A stretch of 64,000 bases of DNA from Helicobacter pylori (lineage in GTDB: Bacteria > Campylobacterota > Campylobacteria > Campylobacterales > Helicobacteraceae): contig NZ_CP122954.1 in the NCBI RefSeq assembly GCF_030323545.1, positions 1,054,001 to 1,118,000 of the forward strand, written 5' to 3'. The translations under genes were made by a program, and so were the position numbers. This document shows positions 26,516 to 37,120 of this stretch, in pieces. Numbering within the stretch: position 1 is the stretch's first letter; every line of letters starts with the position of its first letter. The notes below the pieces were generated by a model. That model was not told the DNA's origin. It worked only from the letters and a program-made list of their open reading frames with translations, and did not search any database.

Positions 26516-26646
26516 CAATCATTCCTATTATTTAATTGCAAGGTTTAAAAAACGCTATTATTATATCCATGTTTCTTGTTAGAATAAAATACAAGATTGC
26601 ATTAAGAACTTTTAAAAAATTTAGCGTATAAATAAGGGAGCAATAA

Positions 26647-27372
26647 ATGAAAGCAAACACAATCATATTGGTGGATTGGGAGAATTTCAGGCGCGATATT
26701 AAACAAACAAAATGCGTTAATTATAATATCGCTTTAGATGTGATCGTTACTATTAGGGCTTTTTTACTAGATGATGAGAGGATCAGTCGTATTTACTTTT
26801 ATACCACCCCACCCTTTGATTTTGAACATGCGTTATGGGATAAGAGGAACGACACTCTCCAAAATGAAAAAAATCCGGGAACAGAAATGAAAATCTTCAC
26901 CAGCAGCGACATTGAAGAGATTTTACAAAGCAGTGAAGCGACTAAATGGGAGAAGATTTATAGCGATGTGGAAAATTTCCAACACGATCTGGCTTCATTG
27001 GATCAAGTGGAATTGAGGTTAGGGAGAACTAAGTTAAACGCAATAAGAGTGGAGTTTGATGGGAGTTATAGAGCGTTATTGGAACAAAAGCAGGTGGATA
27101 TGCTCATGGGTCTTGACATTCAAAGAATAGCCTTTAAAAAAATAGCTGACAGGATTCTTATATTTTCAAAAGATACGGATCTGATCCCCGCGCTCAAATT
27201 AGCCAGAGATGAGGGGTTAAGGGTGGATATTGCTGATTTGTCTAACAGGTTGTCTCTTCTTAGCCAGGACTTGAAATACAATTCGGATAAAGTGAGGAAA
27301 TTGAGCAGCAACGAAGTCAAAGACAAGCTTTTTTCAATCAGAGAAAATCTCACTAAAACCAACTGGGCTTAA
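26647..27372 (+). CDS. NYN-domain (PIN-like) putative ribonuclease (HP0878)
   Basis: A 241-residue cytoplasmic protein of the NYN/PIN-like nuclease fold. NTIILVDWENFRRDI near residue 5 supplies the first acidic residue, and RILIFSKDTDLIPALKLARDEGLRVDI near residues 175-202 supplies the SxDxD type acidic cluster and final strand. NYN proteins are predicted RNases, and members occur as toxins or RNA-processing enzymes. AAGGGAGCAATAA precedes ATG. It stands alone at the edge of a rearrangement junction. Substrate unknown. Confidence 0.78.
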   Translation: MKANTIILVDWENFRRDIKQTKCVNYNIALDVIVTIRAFLLDDERISRIYFYTTPPFDFEHALWDKRNDTLQNEKNPGTEMKIFTSSDIEEILQSSEATKWEKIYSDVENFQHDLASLDQVELRLGRTKLNAIRVEFDGSYRALLEQKQVDMLMGLDIQRIAFKKIADRILIFSKDTDLIPALKLARDEGLRVDIADLSNRLSLLSQDLKYNSDKVRKLSSNEVKDKLFSIRENLTKTNWA

Positions 27373-27713
27373 ACTAAAAACCAACGGAGTTCTAGTAACG
27401 ATGCAAACAGAGTAACCAAAATTTCTTTTTTAAAAAATTAAAAGGCTTTAACCAAAGCGCTAACCCGTTAACGATCCTATTCCTTAGGTTATGGAAGTTT
27501 AAAATGAAGGGTCTTACTGCCCTTATCGGTTTGGATTTTAATCTCCATGAGATTCTTGCAATCGTGTTCTATTGTCAGAGATTCTCCGAATTTAAGCGTG
27601 AACATAGTGGTTTTTTTGACTGGGTGGCTCCGGCTTTCTTTTCATCTTCTTCTTACTCCTTGACTTATTAAAATTTTTGTTTTATATTTTAAATGCAAGC
27701 CCACTCCTTCGGC
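27373..27713. other. rearrangement junction with short coding remnants
   Basis: About 340 bases with no intact gene. On the minus strand, from the ATG at 27603-27605, a stretch reads MFTLKFGESLTIEHDCKNLM, protein-like in composition; the continuation down to about 27490 also looks coding, but I could not settle whether the frame is continuous. It is preceded in frame by a stop at about 27641-27643. This is probably the tail of a gene lost or split when the HP0878 and HP0488 neighbourhoods were joined. Confidence 0.4.
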
Positions 27714-30712
27714 TTATTCTTTAAGCGTTCTTGCCTGCGGAATGAAAGAGTGGATAATGTCCGCCTTGTCAATCTCTGCTTTAATGTAACTTGGTTTAAC
27801 TTTCAATCCTGTAATAAGCTTACTATCATTATCCTGTGTGACTAAAAAATAATAAATCGTTTTAGGATCGCCTTGGAAGGCTTTGATATGCTCTTTTTTA
27901 ACTTCCTTACCTTGATTTTTAAAAATAAGCGTAATATCGGGTTCTTTTAAGGTAGGTTCTACTAAATGCAAATAAGCTAATCGGTGCTTAGCATCAGGCT
28001 TGCTTTGTAAATGTTTAATGAAATTTTCTTTATTTTCAATCCCATTAAAAGCGTTTAAAAAGCTATCAATCTCTCTCGGTAATTGCATGGGTTTTATAGC
28101 GTTCAAATCTTTCAAAAACGCTTCTTTGTCTTCTATGACTTTAAAGGCTCGTTCTTTAATTGCTTTCTCTGTTTCCTCTGTGCTTGTTTTGCTTACTGCT
28201 TCTTTAATCCCTTTCTTGCTTTCTTTTTGCATGTCTTGAACGGCTTCTATCAAGCGCTTTAAAGTAGGGTTGTTTTCGTTCGGCTCTCTATTCACCATTA
28301 AAAGGTAATGCGTGAAGTCGTAAATATCAATATCCTTAAATTCCTTACTATCAGGGTTAAACATGTCTTTAGCTTCATCTGCGATCTTAAATTCTTTCAA
28401 ACCTTTTTTAATGTTATCGCTTCTTAAAGCTTCAAATAACGCTTTACTTGGATCATCAAACCTCGCAAATCGTGCGATCGCGCTTCCTAAAATCTCGCTG
28501 ATATCGCTTGTGCTTTGATCGCTCTTTTCAAACATCTCTAACGAACTCGTTTTATAGAATTTTTCGCTCAAATCTTTCAGGCTCTCGCTTGTTGTTTGAT
28601 AATTCTTTAAATTCGCAAAACTGCGATCCATAATATTGCTTAAATAAGCGTTTAGGCTTACATTAGGAAAGCTCATGTCGTGGATGAGATTGTGAAAACT
28701 CCCTGCGTTATCTACAAACATTTTTTTTACTTTTTCATAGCTTTTAATATCATTTGAAAATTCTTTCTGCCAGCGGTTTAATAGTTCTATCCCTTGCGTT
28801 TTAGTGCGTGGCATGTTAAACATTAACAACGCTAAATTACTATCGCCTACATTAGGATGAGTAGCCTTATCAAAATTAAGGTTTTTGGCCACAATGTTTT
28901 TTAATGAATAAATGCTATCAGCGTTTAACTTGGTTTCTAATTCTTTTAATTTAGGTTCATAGTGGCTTAAAACCGCTATCGCATGATCGCTCTCACTGTT
29001 AAAGCGTCCTTGATTGCTAGAAGCCGCTAAATTGTTGATCTCGGTATTGTTTAGTCGGTTGTGTGGCACTCGCACTAACAGCTCGTCCGGTTTCAAGTCT
29101 ATGTGATAGTATTCCTTGACCGCTTTCTCGTAAGCAAAACGGCTTTTAGGCGTGAAATTCAGCATGCCTTGGATTCTGTGGTTTCCTGCGATCACTTGCC
29201 CGTCGTTTAAAATGATCGGTAAATCTTCAAAACCTCCGCTCCCAAATATCTTCTTAGGGTCAAAATTCTCAGCAATGCTTTTAATCTGTTTTTCGTTCAT
29301 GTCGGTGCGTTTTTGCGTTCCGCCTGTGGTAAAGCTCGGTTTCAAGTCTTTGGCTTTCACGATCGCATAGTCTAAATCGTAAATCTCTCGTTCGTTCAAT
29401 CTCACTCGGCTTTTAGGTAGTTGCGTTTGCGTATTCGCTGGTATATCTTCTCCTACTTCTATTTTAGTCTGACTTTCAATATTGCCCGCATTGCCTCGCT
29501 CGTGTTCTAATTTCTTTTTTAAAGCCTCTTTTCGCTTTGTTTCTTGCTCTTTAGCTTTTAAAAATTCTTGTTCGCTTTCTAATCTTTCGCTTTCTAGTTT
29601 CGCAAGCTTTTCGACGTTGGCTTGTTCAAACGGGCTTAAGGGTGTAGGCTTTTGTGTGGTTTCGTTTAAATCTTTGCTTGTTTTTGATAAATCCTCTTGA
29701 TCTATTAGCGGTTTTTGTGTAAGATTAGGTTCATGGGGATGGTTTCCAGAGTGTAGACTGGCATCCCTAAAATCTATAAAATTCCTATCGCTATAAAAAT
29801 CAAAAATCTTATTTCCATTGTTTAAATCATCTACGACTAACCTAAGCTTTACGCCGTTATTATCCCATTCGTAAGCATATCTAAATCCGTTTTTAATCCT
29901 TTCAAAACTCTCTAATAACACGCTTCCGTTTTTGATTACTTCGCTCATGTTAAATAGTTCATCGTTAGTTAGTCCGCCTGTGTTCTCTTCTCCGTAATGC
30001 TTTCTTAGTATTTTTCTAGCTCCCGCATTCCTTGATCCTTGTTCTAAAAGATAAAGGTCGTTTAAATCTATTCCTTTAACCTCTGTTTGATCCAACTCGC
30101 CGTTAAACACTTTTAAAACTTGTTGCTGTTCTTTAGTAAGCTTGCTTTCATCAATCTTTTGTAATTCTTTTAAGGCTTGTTCGTATTTAGTGGCTTTCTC
30201 TTTGATTTCTTCGCTCGCGCTTTTGACGCCGTTAGTAAGCTCTTCAATGATTTTAAGCGTGTTGTTGCTAAATTTAGCGTTTTGCGCGCTTAGTTCTAAA
30301 TTCTTACTAAACTCGCTTATTGTGTGGCTTCTTTCTAACGCTCTTTTAATGTGATACTTTAACGCTGCGCCTGCGGTGGCTTCGTTTAAAGCTTTAGGTA
30401 ATTTCACTCCTAAAATACGATCGGGAGCGTTACGGTATAAAGTCCCTAGCGTGAATTTAGTCCATTGATACTTTAACGCTCCGCTTAGAGTGGTCGCTAA
30501 ACCTTGGCTTAAGTTCTTGGTGGTGGCTGGCTTTAGGCTCTCTGCGATCTTAGCGTCGTTTTTAAAAAGCTTATGAAAACCGCTCGCTATGTCAATGTAT
30601 TCTTTAGCCTTTGGTGTGGTAAAAACATCATCTTTAAACTCGTTTAGCTTGTTTAAGAAATGCGTAGGTGTGGTGTTTTGTTCTAGTATATTAAATATTG
30701 AATAATAAAGTT
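27714..30712 (-). pseudogene. 5'-truncated polyvalent mobile-element protein (HP0488-like)
   Basis: A GTG-started frame of 897 codons (30407 down to 27714) is preceded by about 100 further open, protein-like codons up to a stop near 30710-30712, with no usable ATG there, so the 5' end appears lost. From the GTG: residues 115-212 resemble the PBECR nuclease-fold domains of phage and conjugative elements (RKHYGEENTGGLTNDELFNM, FYSDRN); 265-310 are a Glu/Lys coil; 355-460 are ParB/DdrB-like (FEDLPIILNDGQVIAGNHRI); about 805-890 resemble a second PBECR-type domain (RLAYLHLVEPTLKEPDITLI). This domain set matches 'polyvalent proteins'. The spacing from AGGA to GTG is too short for good initiation. 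Whether it is expressed is unclear. Confidence 0.6.
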
Positions 30713-30804
30713 AAATAAGGCTTTTTGAGTATTGATATTTGATTGGAGCAGAGCCTTTCAATATTTTAAAAAGGCTAATCAAAAATACCCATTAAGGATA
30801 AATA

Positions 30805-32217
30805 CTAGTAAATCCTAAAACCATAAGTGATGTTAAACATGATATGGCTTCGGTCAGAATACACATTGTGTGTTAAAGGTTGCGTGCCAGGCCCGTTAGG
30901 ATCGACTGGAACATACATGCCACAATACCCAATACAATAGCCTTTTTTGGTGATATTGCCATAATATTCTAGTTTTAAATCCATTCTAATATTATACCTA
31001 TTAGAAAAATAACTCAAAAAGAGTGCAAGACTCCTTTCATCAGCCCTTGGGCTATCCGTCCAACGGCCTAAAATTTTCCAGCTAAACCCTCTATATTGTG
31101 AGCCTACATACAAAAACCCGTTGATAACATCAGCACCAACAATATTGTTAATTTCTGCGTCATAAATACTATTCGTCCAGATATTATACCCCAAAGGATC
31201 CCCATAAATACCTATATCACCATTAGCGTTACCGATATTTTTATAGACACTGCCCCCAAATTGCCACTTGTTATAGTAAAAACGAGTGCGGAAGAAATAA
31301 GTTTGCCCGCTCTTGCCTAGCGGCACTTGTTGGAATAGAATAATATCATTTTGATTAGCCGGAGTGGCAAAAATGGGGAAAAACCCCACGAAAGTGCCTA
31401 CAAAACGAAAGCCTTTATTGTTGAAATTAGGGTTGGTGTCGTAAGTGATATTAATGCCTGGTGCATACATTCTTTGAAAGATCGCATAAAAATAAGGGTT
31501 GATTTTTAGGTTGTCTTTTTCATATTTCAAATCCGCTATCATTAGAGCCTTACCGCTTGTATAGTAACGCCCAAAATACCAAAACCAGTCGCTTGACGCT
31601 GAAGCCCTAGCGTCTGAATACATCACTCTGAATCTGGTGTCTTTGTATTTGACAAAGCCTTCAACCCCTTGAGTGTAAGAAGTGAACCAATCATACTCTT
31701 CAGCATCATAGCGCCCCCCTTTCACACCAAAACTGAATTTGTCTTTTTTGTAGTTGTAGCTCAAAAAAGCGTTATGCACCATGGCTAAACGAGGTTTTTG
31801 CACATTTAAACCGCTATGTCCCGCATACCAACCAATGTATTGCCAAAAGATACCCGCCCCAAAAGGATCAGTCCTAGAGCCAGGCTGGCCATTAGGGATA
31901 TTGTTGCCTTGATAAGCGGTAGAGTCATAGGGGAGCGCTGCCATCATCGCCCCCACTTCCGCTCTCAAACCCTTGTATAAACCCATGCTCAAATTCAATT
32001 CACCGAGTAAAGAAGTGTAGCTACCTGTAGGATAAATGTCTTTAGAAGGCTGGTATCTTTGGTTATTAAAGCCAAACTTGGTATAGCTGCTCACCTTTCC
32101 AACAATGCTCATGTTGAATTCATAAGCTTGAAGTTTGGATAAAAAAAGACTAGAAAAAAGCAAAAAAAATAGAGAGTAAGAAAAATACTTCTTAACTTCC
32201 AAAACCCTAACTCCCAA
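30805..32217 (-). CDS. hofD: Hof-family outer membrane protein HofD (HP0487)
   Basis: A 470-residue predicted outer-membrane beta-barrel with an N-terminal signal (YFSYSLFFLLFSSLFLSKLQA) and a C-terminal strand ending FNITYGFRIY with a terminal aromatic residue. Alternating strands such as KFSFGVKGGRYDAEEYDWFT resemble those of the upstream paralogue. The only starts are TTG codons at 32217 or 32202; the latter lies close after AGGG, so the start is uncertain. It lies 54 bases downstream of hofC and is likely cotranscribed. Hof proteins are porin-like; the substrate is unknown. Confidence 0.85.
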   Translation of the reverse strand: MGVRVLEVKKYFSYSLFFLLFSSLFLSKLQAYEFNMSIVGKVSSYTKFGFNNQRYQPSKDIYPTGSYTSLLGELNLSMGLYKGLRAEVGAMMAALPYDSTAYQGNNIPNGQPGSRTDPFGAGIFWQYIGWYAGHSGLNVQKPRLAMVHNAFLSYNYKKDKFSFGVKGGRYDAEEYDWFTSYTQGVEGFVKYKDTRFRVMYSDARASASSDWFWYFGRYYTSGKALMIADLKYEKDNLKINPYFYAIFQRMYAPGINITYDTNPNFNNKGFRFVGTFVGFFPIFATPANQNDIILFQQVPLGKSGQTYFFRTRFYYNKWQFGGSVYKNIGNANGDIGIYGDPLGYNIWTNSIYDAEINNIVGADVINGFLYVGSQYRGFSWKILGRWTDSPRADERSLALFLSYFSNRYNIRMDLKLEYYGNITKKGYCIGYCGMYVPVDPNGPGTQPLTHNVYSDRSHIMFNITYGFRIY

Positions 32218-35319: not shown

Positions 35320-36072
35320 TTATGAAAGCGGCTTACTAGGTATTTCTGTAATTTTGTAATCAAAAAAGTTTTGCGAAATATTAAAAACGCTCTGCCCTTC
35401 CATTTGTTGGCGGGTTATCCAATTCAAATCATTGTCTTTGATTTTAGAAATTTCTACGCACGCTACTTGCCCGTTAAACAGATCAAAATGCACCACAATA
35501 GTAGGGATTTTATCCGTTATCAAACGCCTTTTAGCTTCTATAACTTTATGTTCTTTAATATCATTGATCCCTTGAAACCCGCTTTGAACTTCTAGCAGTA
35601 AATGATTGTCTAACAAAAAATCGGCTTTAGGACTTCTTTTAAAGCTTTCTATGCTCTCAAAATTATCACCACCAAAAAATTTAATGGTTTCTTTTTGTGC
35701 GCCAAAAAGACAAGCGATAAAATTCTTAAAAAACTCCGCTACTAAAAACCCACGCATCCAAGAAAAACACACTTCTTCAGGTCTTCTGCCTTGATTATTC
35801 AGCTTATAAATAATATAAGTATCCACTATCTTTGAAAACACTTGCTCTATGGAGTTTTTAAAAAAGCATTCCAATTCATACTCATTATATTTAAAACAAT
35901 AAATACTATTGATAGCGCTAAAAATTTCAATAAGCCTTTTTTTGAGTGCGTTTAAATAACTGAAATCAACGCAAGGTTGTATGTCTTTAGTGCCTAAAAA
36001 TTCCTTAAACGCATTTTGCGAACCAAAACCCAGTAATTTTCTGTAATCCTTAAAGTCATTATTGTTAAACAT
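35320..36072 (-). CDS. putative type II restriction endonuclease
   Basis: A 250-residue protein starting one base after the stop of a C5 methyltransferase, with AAAGGGGTAAG before ATG. SPKADFLLDNHLLLEVQSG (Asp151, Glu161, Gln163) has the spacing of a PD-(D/E)XK catalytic site with Gln in place of Lys, a known variant. The preceding RRPEEVCFSWMRGFLVAEFF may contribute to fold or DNA contact. I do not recognise the family by name; the role is inferred from this motif and from pairing with the methyltransferase. The frame is intact. Confidence 0.65.
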   Translation of the reverse strand: MFNNNDFKDYRKLLGFGSQNAFKEFLGTKDIQPCVDFSYLNALKKRLIEIFSAINSIYCFKYNEYELECFFKNSIEQVFSKIVDTYIIYKLNNQGRRPEEVCFSWMRGFLVAEFFKNFIACLFGAQKETIKFFGGDNFESIESFKRSPKADFLLDNHLLLEVQSGFQGINDIKEHKVIEAKRRLITDKIPTIVVHFDLFNGQVACVEISKIKDNDLNWITRQQMEGQSVFNISQNFFDYKITEIPSKPLS

Positions 36073-36073
36073 C

Positions 36074-37120
36074 TTACCCCTTTAAAAAGTCAAAAACCGC
36101 CTGTGCGAGCGCTACACTCAATAAAGGCGGAACGGCATTGCCAATTTGCAATCTTTTAGCGCTAGTGCTCCCATAAAATTTATAATTATCAGGAAAGCTT
36201 TGCAATCTTGCCCCCTCTCTAATGCTTAACGCTCTAGAGTCTCTTGGATGGATACACCTAGAACTGCTTGGGGTAGAAAAATTTCTTGTAATGGTGGGGG
36301 CTGGTTTTTCCCACCACATTTTGGCATAGGTATTAGTATAACCACTTTTGGGGCGTAAATTTTCTGGCAAATCGTCTTTACTCTGTCCGTCTTTTAGCGT
36401 TTGCATGATTTTTATAAGTTTTTCATTGTTTTTAGGACTGCTATGTTCGCTTAATTCTTTAGAATTTCGCACAAATTCCAAAAAAACATTATCCGCATTT
36501 TTAAGATAACCTAAAGCATCACCATTTTCACCGCCTTGAATGGGTGGTAAATCCCCTAAAGCGTCTTTTAGAGAAAAATGCGTTTTTATGGGTTTGGGGA
36601 AGTGGAATTTTTGTTTAAAGCTTTTGAGCACGCCCACTAAAATCACTCGCTCTCTTATTTGAGGCACACCATAATCTAGGGCGTTTAAAATGGCATGCTC
36701 TAAAATATAACCTCTCTCTTTAAAAGCGTTACAAATTTGTTTGAATAATTGCCCTTTTTGCATAGACATTAAACCCACCACATTTTCAAAAACAAACATT
36801 TTTGGTTTTACTAAATCCAAGAGCCGCAAATATTCTTTAAACAGATTCGCTTTTTCATCCATTTTTCTTTTGCCAAGGGTAGAATAGCTCTGGCATGGTG
36901 GTCCGCCTAGTAGAATATCAATTGAAACGCATGGTAAGTTGTGGCAATTAAGTTGCATAATATCGCATAAAATGGTTTGCGTTTCTTTATGATTGGCTTG
37001 ATAGCTTAAAATAGCGTCCTTGTCTATATCATTAGCCCATATTAATTCAAAATAAGGGTGCATAGAAAAGCCATAGCTCAATCCTCCAGCACCACAAAAA
37101 ATATCTGCTACCTTATACAA
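36074..37120 (-). CDS. DNA (cytosine-5) methyltransferase (HP0483-like)
   Basis: A 348-residue C5 methyltransferase with all core motifs: VADIFCGAGGLSYGF, GGPPCQSYSTLG with the catalytic Cys, FENVVGLM, VPQIRERVILVG, and REGARLQSF followed by IGNAVPPLLSVALAQ. The target-recognition region (residues 180-290, including YTNTYAKMWWEKPAPTITRN) does not let me name the site. The start is TTG about ten bases after AAAGGA. It is followed at one-base spacing by its likely endonuclease partner, and preceded by a second, different R-M pair. Confidence 0.93.
   Translation of the reverse strand: MYKVADIFCGAGGLSYGFSMHPYFELIWANDIDKDAILSYQANHKETQTILCDIMQLNCHNLPCVSIDILLGGPPCQSYSTLGKRKMDEKANLFKEYLRLLDLVKPKMFVFENVVGLMSMQKGQLFKQICNAFKERGYILEHAILNALDYGVPQIRERVILVGVLKSFKQKFHFPKPIKTHFSLKDALGDLPPIQGGENGDALGYLKNADNVFLEFVRNSKELSEHSSPKNNEKLIKIMQTLKDGQSKDDLPENLRPKSGYTNTYAKMWWEKPAPTITRNFSTPSSSRCIHPRDSRALSIREGARLQSFPDNYKFYGSTSAKRLQIGNAVPPLLSVALAQAVFDFLKG

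Follow-up and report, generated by a model that had tools for sequence, protein, structure and literature searches.

The window analysed here, a stretch of 64,000 nucleotides of the Helicobacter pylori contig NZ_CP122954.1, carries on its minus strand, downstream of hofD, an open reading frame of 998 codons, which is bounded at its 5′ side by a TAA at 30711-30713 (Table 1). The first in-frame start codon is a GTG at 30405..30407 (minus strand), which is without a Shine-Dalgarno sequence and is not kept in every copy compared. The frame is therefore without a credible start, as had already been proposed in a reading made from the sequence alone (the sequence-only reading). The same reading had noted about 100 coherent codons upstream of the GTG. 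Indeed, most of these codons are phage sequence, as a match to ORF11 of the Helicobacter phage KHP40 begins at about residue 16 of the frame.

Table 1. Features of the window copy and its surroundings (positions within the window; C1, coordinates in the whole contig).
Feature	Position	Strand	Evidence
C-terminal part of polyvalent virion protein, HP0488 ortholog (inferred), site A	27714..30710	-	Open frame, phage alignment and Pfam
Fixed 5′ junction between the intergenic region 3′ of hofD and ORF11 (about residue 748-758)	30668..30804	-	Shared by 12 genomes
DUF3519 match, residues 265-360, module slot 1	29631..29918	-	Pfam E 1.5e-25
Glu/Lys-rich coil, linker from slot 1 to ParB	29436..29627	-	Read directly in translation
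DdrB-like ParB domain, residues 440-549, AGNHRI motif	29064..29393	-	Pfam E 1e-32
PBECR2-like C-terminal domain, residues 895-978, module slot 2	27777..28028	-	Pfam E 3.2e-5, under curated cut-off
2,938 bp, 100% identical and inverted to C1:454667 onward (HP1116 site, hcpX-uvrB)	27653..30590	.	Within-genome sequence comparison
Join to ruvC/NYN side (site C), one inversion end	27373..27652	.	Gene-order comparison; other end near C1:851-852 kb

The profile search that had been suggested for PBECR and ParB domains recovered the DdrB-like ParB domain (PF18763) with 113.3 bits, above the curated cut-off of 27.6 bits, and the Glu/Lys coil that had been described was found as well. PBECR2 (PF18810) was matched weakly, with 24.6 bits against a cut-off of 27.1 bits. 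As the same domain in the full-length KHP40 ORF11 passes the cut-off (27.6 bits), the C-terminal domain of the window frame is called PBECR2-like here. The expectation of a PBECR3-like domain at this position thus held for a PBECR-like domain but not for PBECR3 (PF18812), which yielded no Pfam match in the frame at E-values up to 1 and is matched by six of nine relatives. In a predicted structure (pLDDT 75.7) the C-terminal domain consists of helices followed by a four-strand meander, for which no confident match was found among PDB structures (the top hit, with Z 5.7, has an unrelated fold); the CdiA toxin complex 6cp9 appeared low in both structure-search lists and is not relied on. The first domain, which had been taken for PBECR-like, is a DUF3519 domain that occupies the slot where relatives carry PBECR1 or PBECR3, but profile-profile comparison gave no proof of a PBECR fold, and its own structure model was of low confidence. 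A link between DUF3519 and PBECR reached 99.6% in hhalign with alignments that shared rows and about 1% or less without those rows, and was dropped. No sequence relatives of the frame were found in the PDB, no Rfam match over 26600-31000 and no PADLOC match for the frame.

KHP40 ORF11 is a protein of 1,725 amino acids that carries DUF3519, ddrB-ParB and PBECR2 domains. It thereby combines several effector domains with a position among virion genes, as is typical for a phage-type polyvalent protein. From about residue 16 onward, the window frame aligns to ORF11 residues 748-1723 with 90% identity and retains all three domains, the PBECR2 match being sub-cut-off. To judge from this alignment, the frame represents the C-terminal ~58% of a polyvalent virion protein of Helicobacter phages (Schmidvirus) with a full length of 1,725 residues, in agreement with the earlier idea of a remnant from the end of a very large protein of a prophage or integrative element. 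At the DNA level, a search with the frame led to Helicobacter phages, and the KHP40 match spans 79% of the query with an identity of 88%; homology to KHP40 and other phages extends over the whole fragment at 88-90% identity. PHROG 4668 (1,553 positions) is matched from position 751. As regards an origin from an ICE or TnPZ, the matches of the frame were phage records and PHROGs. The N-terminal 740 residues of ORF11, a half that includes a glycine-zipper-like stretch, have no match in this genome, and they are unmatched in nine of the twelve genomes with both of the junctions described below, matches being present only in G019, G023 and G026. Mass spectrometry of virions of phage HPy1R identified gp12, a homolog of ORF11 (64 unique peptides, 43.8% coverage; PMC9319048). 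From this virion proteome and Iyer et al. (2017; PMC5512222) we infer that the full-length phage protein is packaged and that it probably enters the host by injection, as an effector directed at DNA and RNA. Unlike this published case of virion packaging, the window fragment comes without the N-terminal half and without virion genes.

The second copy in this genome, which the sequence-only reading had not mentioned, lies inverted and ~627 kb apart from the window copy, between hcpX and uvrB, and is followed by a phage orf12-like gene. Based on gene order and the literature, the window copy (site A) appears to correspond to the HP0488 locus and the second copy (site B) to the HP1116/jhp1044 locus. 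Other genomes hold decayed fragments at a further site (site C), which is flanked by ruvC and a gene for an NYN-domain protein on one side. Between the displaced flanks of the inversion, the former 3′ flank of site A at C1:845.9-851.2 kb and the former 5′ flank of site C at 852.4-856.9 kb, an orf12 remnant is found. The joined arrangement of sites A and C is common to G019 and G027. The NYN-domain protein beside ruvC (26647-27372, plus strand; Pfam E 1e-5) is 99-100% identical in the relatives checked and has a weak PADLOC match to HEC-09 (E 7e-4). Elsewhere in the window (35320-37100), a restriction-gene-like frame (35320-36072) adjoins a region that is 34% similar to a DNA methyltransferase.

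Both 5′ junctions, on the hofD side and on the hcpX-uvrB side, align across 11-12 H. pylori genomes. As these loci had been fetched around matches, the count was taken from unbiased searches with each junction, which found full-length matches through both junctions in 12 genomes and partial ones in G017 and G021; neither junction was found in more distant Helicobacter. The 5′ truncation is an old junction and not a strain-specific accident. It is hence highly improbable that the fragment is simple debris made in this strain by the adjacent rearrangement: the window copy does lie at an inversion join, but the same 5′ junction occurs in 12 genomes, most of them without this inversion, which refutes the idea for the 5′ truncation. 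Only the 3′ join of the window copy is rearrangement-derived, and the earlier picture of a fragment stranded beside a rearrangement join is right for this side only. Of the refuting condition set in the sequence-only reading, homologues in all strains with exactly this start and a conserved ribosome site, only one half applies: the junction is the same everywhere, but the aligned copies do not share a start codon that has a ribosome site. Five of eleven assessable genomes have site A split or have lost it by deletion, and site B is intact in ten of eleven; this difference (5/11 against 1/11 broken) is suggestive only.

The body of the fragment is far from uniform. At site B, at least seven module combinations occur in ten genomes: PBECR3-ParB-PBECR1, PBECR3-PBECR1-ParB, PBECR3-PBECR1-ParB-PBECR1, PBECR2-ParB, DUF3519-ParB, DUF3519-ParB-PBECR3, PBECR1-ParB-PBECR1 and PBECR3-ParB (in Pfam order where positions were given, otherwise in inferred order). 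This variety matches the mosaicism described for jhp1044 by Iyer et al. (PMC5512222). The polyvalent core shows a median dS of ~0.60 between genomes, compared to 0.12-0.21 in eight neighbouring genes, and within 110 codons of junction B the dS is already 0.53, so that divergence rises in a step at the junction. In a tree, chromosomal and phage copies are intermixed, which suggests that the sequence of the polyvalent body keeps being swapped with phage copies. In two IMG/VR contigs (L086 and L090), phage late genes follow immediately after hofD and the truncated gene; both contigs are apparently prophage-chromosome recombinants. Within single genomes, the copies at sites A and B share stretches of 2.5-3.4 kb with an identity of 99.9-100% in G000, G018, G019, G025 and G028, with a value close to this in G026, and their differences are clustered in tracts in G016. 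Further near-identical pairs were seen in G018 (C1:514354 and 1489856) and G019 (C1:930296 and 1141256), and the latter genome also contains a third copy, a partial one, at 526726. It could be argued that the two startless copies form a pair of silent cassettes, kept as an archive of donor sequence which recombines with resident or incoming phage copies and thereby diversifies PBECR modules. The module combinations at site B, the gene conversion between copies and the phage-chromosome hybrids would fit with this idea. Yet, ordinary homologous recombination explains the exchange, and there is no sign of a benefit or of a directed mechanism, which makes such a role very unlikely.

A different question is whether the fragment is expressed. 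The polyvalent core has a dN/dS of ~0.08, and no stops were present in the core sequences that tblastn aligned in a single unbroken match, a set which leaves out frameshift- or deletion-split copies. When neutral change was simulated on terminal branches, ~41 stops were expected in 13 copies, versus none observed. This excess of open frames over neutrality in situ could mean that the chromosomal copies are expressed and under selection. Accordingly, the fragment might be a domesticated gene, whose translation would begin internally or at a non-canonical codon and give a ParB/PBECR nuclease that selection maintains, for example against other phages. Besides the low dN/dS and the stop-free core, the intactness of site B in ten of eleven genomes would speak for this, as would the promoter-like TGCTATAAT upstream at site B in this strain and the antisense RNAs listed for both HP0488 and HP1116 (PMC8322730), by which such a gene would perhaps be controlled. 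Against it stand the lack of a conserved start codon or Shine-Dalgarno sequence and the loss or splitting of site A in five of eleven genomes; moreover, with the phage-level dS and the intermixed tree, no selection in the host is needed to account for the low dN/dS. Altogether, we regard domestication as unlikely. An extended -10 resembling TGCTATAAT is conserved across aligned strains upstream of the HP1116 junction (L003, 9540-9600), and no start codon follows it; promoter scans within the window gave results near chance.

The explanation which we consider probable is that the two copies are untranslated, startless relics of a phage gene, which are overwritten from the phage pool, homogenised with each other and act as recombination hot spots. 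A C-terminal fragment of the Schmidvirus virion protein would have been fixed long ago at two sites of the H. pylori chromosome, with perhaps three sites originally. The chromosomal fragment most likely makes no protein as such, while homologous recombination with phages and with other strains would overwrite its body time and again, and copies A and B would be homogenised by gene conversion. If they are such relics, the low dN/dS is expected, because selection acts in the phage on the full-length protein. The practical effect of the pair would be that of a recombination substrate, giving rise to large inversions and to the splitting of resident prophages, in line with the published ~590 kb inversion between HP0488 and HP1116 within a host (PMC6531487) and with prophages that break at this gene (PMC11321410). 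The stop-free frames, the largely intact site B, the promoter-like TGCTATAAT, the antisense RNAs and the transcript differences reported for HP1116 (PMC5576686) argue against an untranslated relic. A more far-reaching idea, which we hold to be rather doubtful, is that the inverted startless pair is a standing recombination trap or archive, with which incoming or resident prophages recombine, whereupon they are split and disabled and leave behind a refreshed effector body.

The gene, its mosaicism, the duplication, the inversions and the prophage breakage are already published, and the object has to be counted as known for this reason. Iyer et al. (2017; PMC5512222) named jhp1044 as a phage polyvalent protein, and the part of their paper available describes the same gene family (jhp1044/HP1116), with PBECR modules around a DdrB-like ParB domain and extensive mosaicism, without discussing truncation, the missing start or fixed sites. 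JHP1044 had been paired with HP1116 before (PMC549213). The inverted duplication HP0488/HP1116 (PMC3046158) and an inversion of ~590 kb between them within a host (PMC6531487) concern the same two loci, inverted and near-identical within a genome, although the repeat reported in 26695 has 1,430 bp, compared to 2,938 bp at 100% identity here. In Shi470, a TnPZ is inserted in hp0488 (PMC2731543). Prophages were reported to break in the DUF3519 gene (PMC11321410), that is, in the same gene and via homology to bacterial copies; there this was inferred from breakpoints, whereas here the bacterial copies themselves were dissected. The fixed startless junctions and the step in divergence at the junction may be additions of this study, as they are unmatched in the literature compared, with publication elsewhere being possible.

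With these junctions, HP0488 and HP1116 are no longer hypothetical genes but parts of a phage virion effector that were captured without a start and became fixed. Their reading as relics explains how both can seem conserved and yet hypervariable, and the published idea that prophages are inactivated by rearrangement becomes testable at defined sites.
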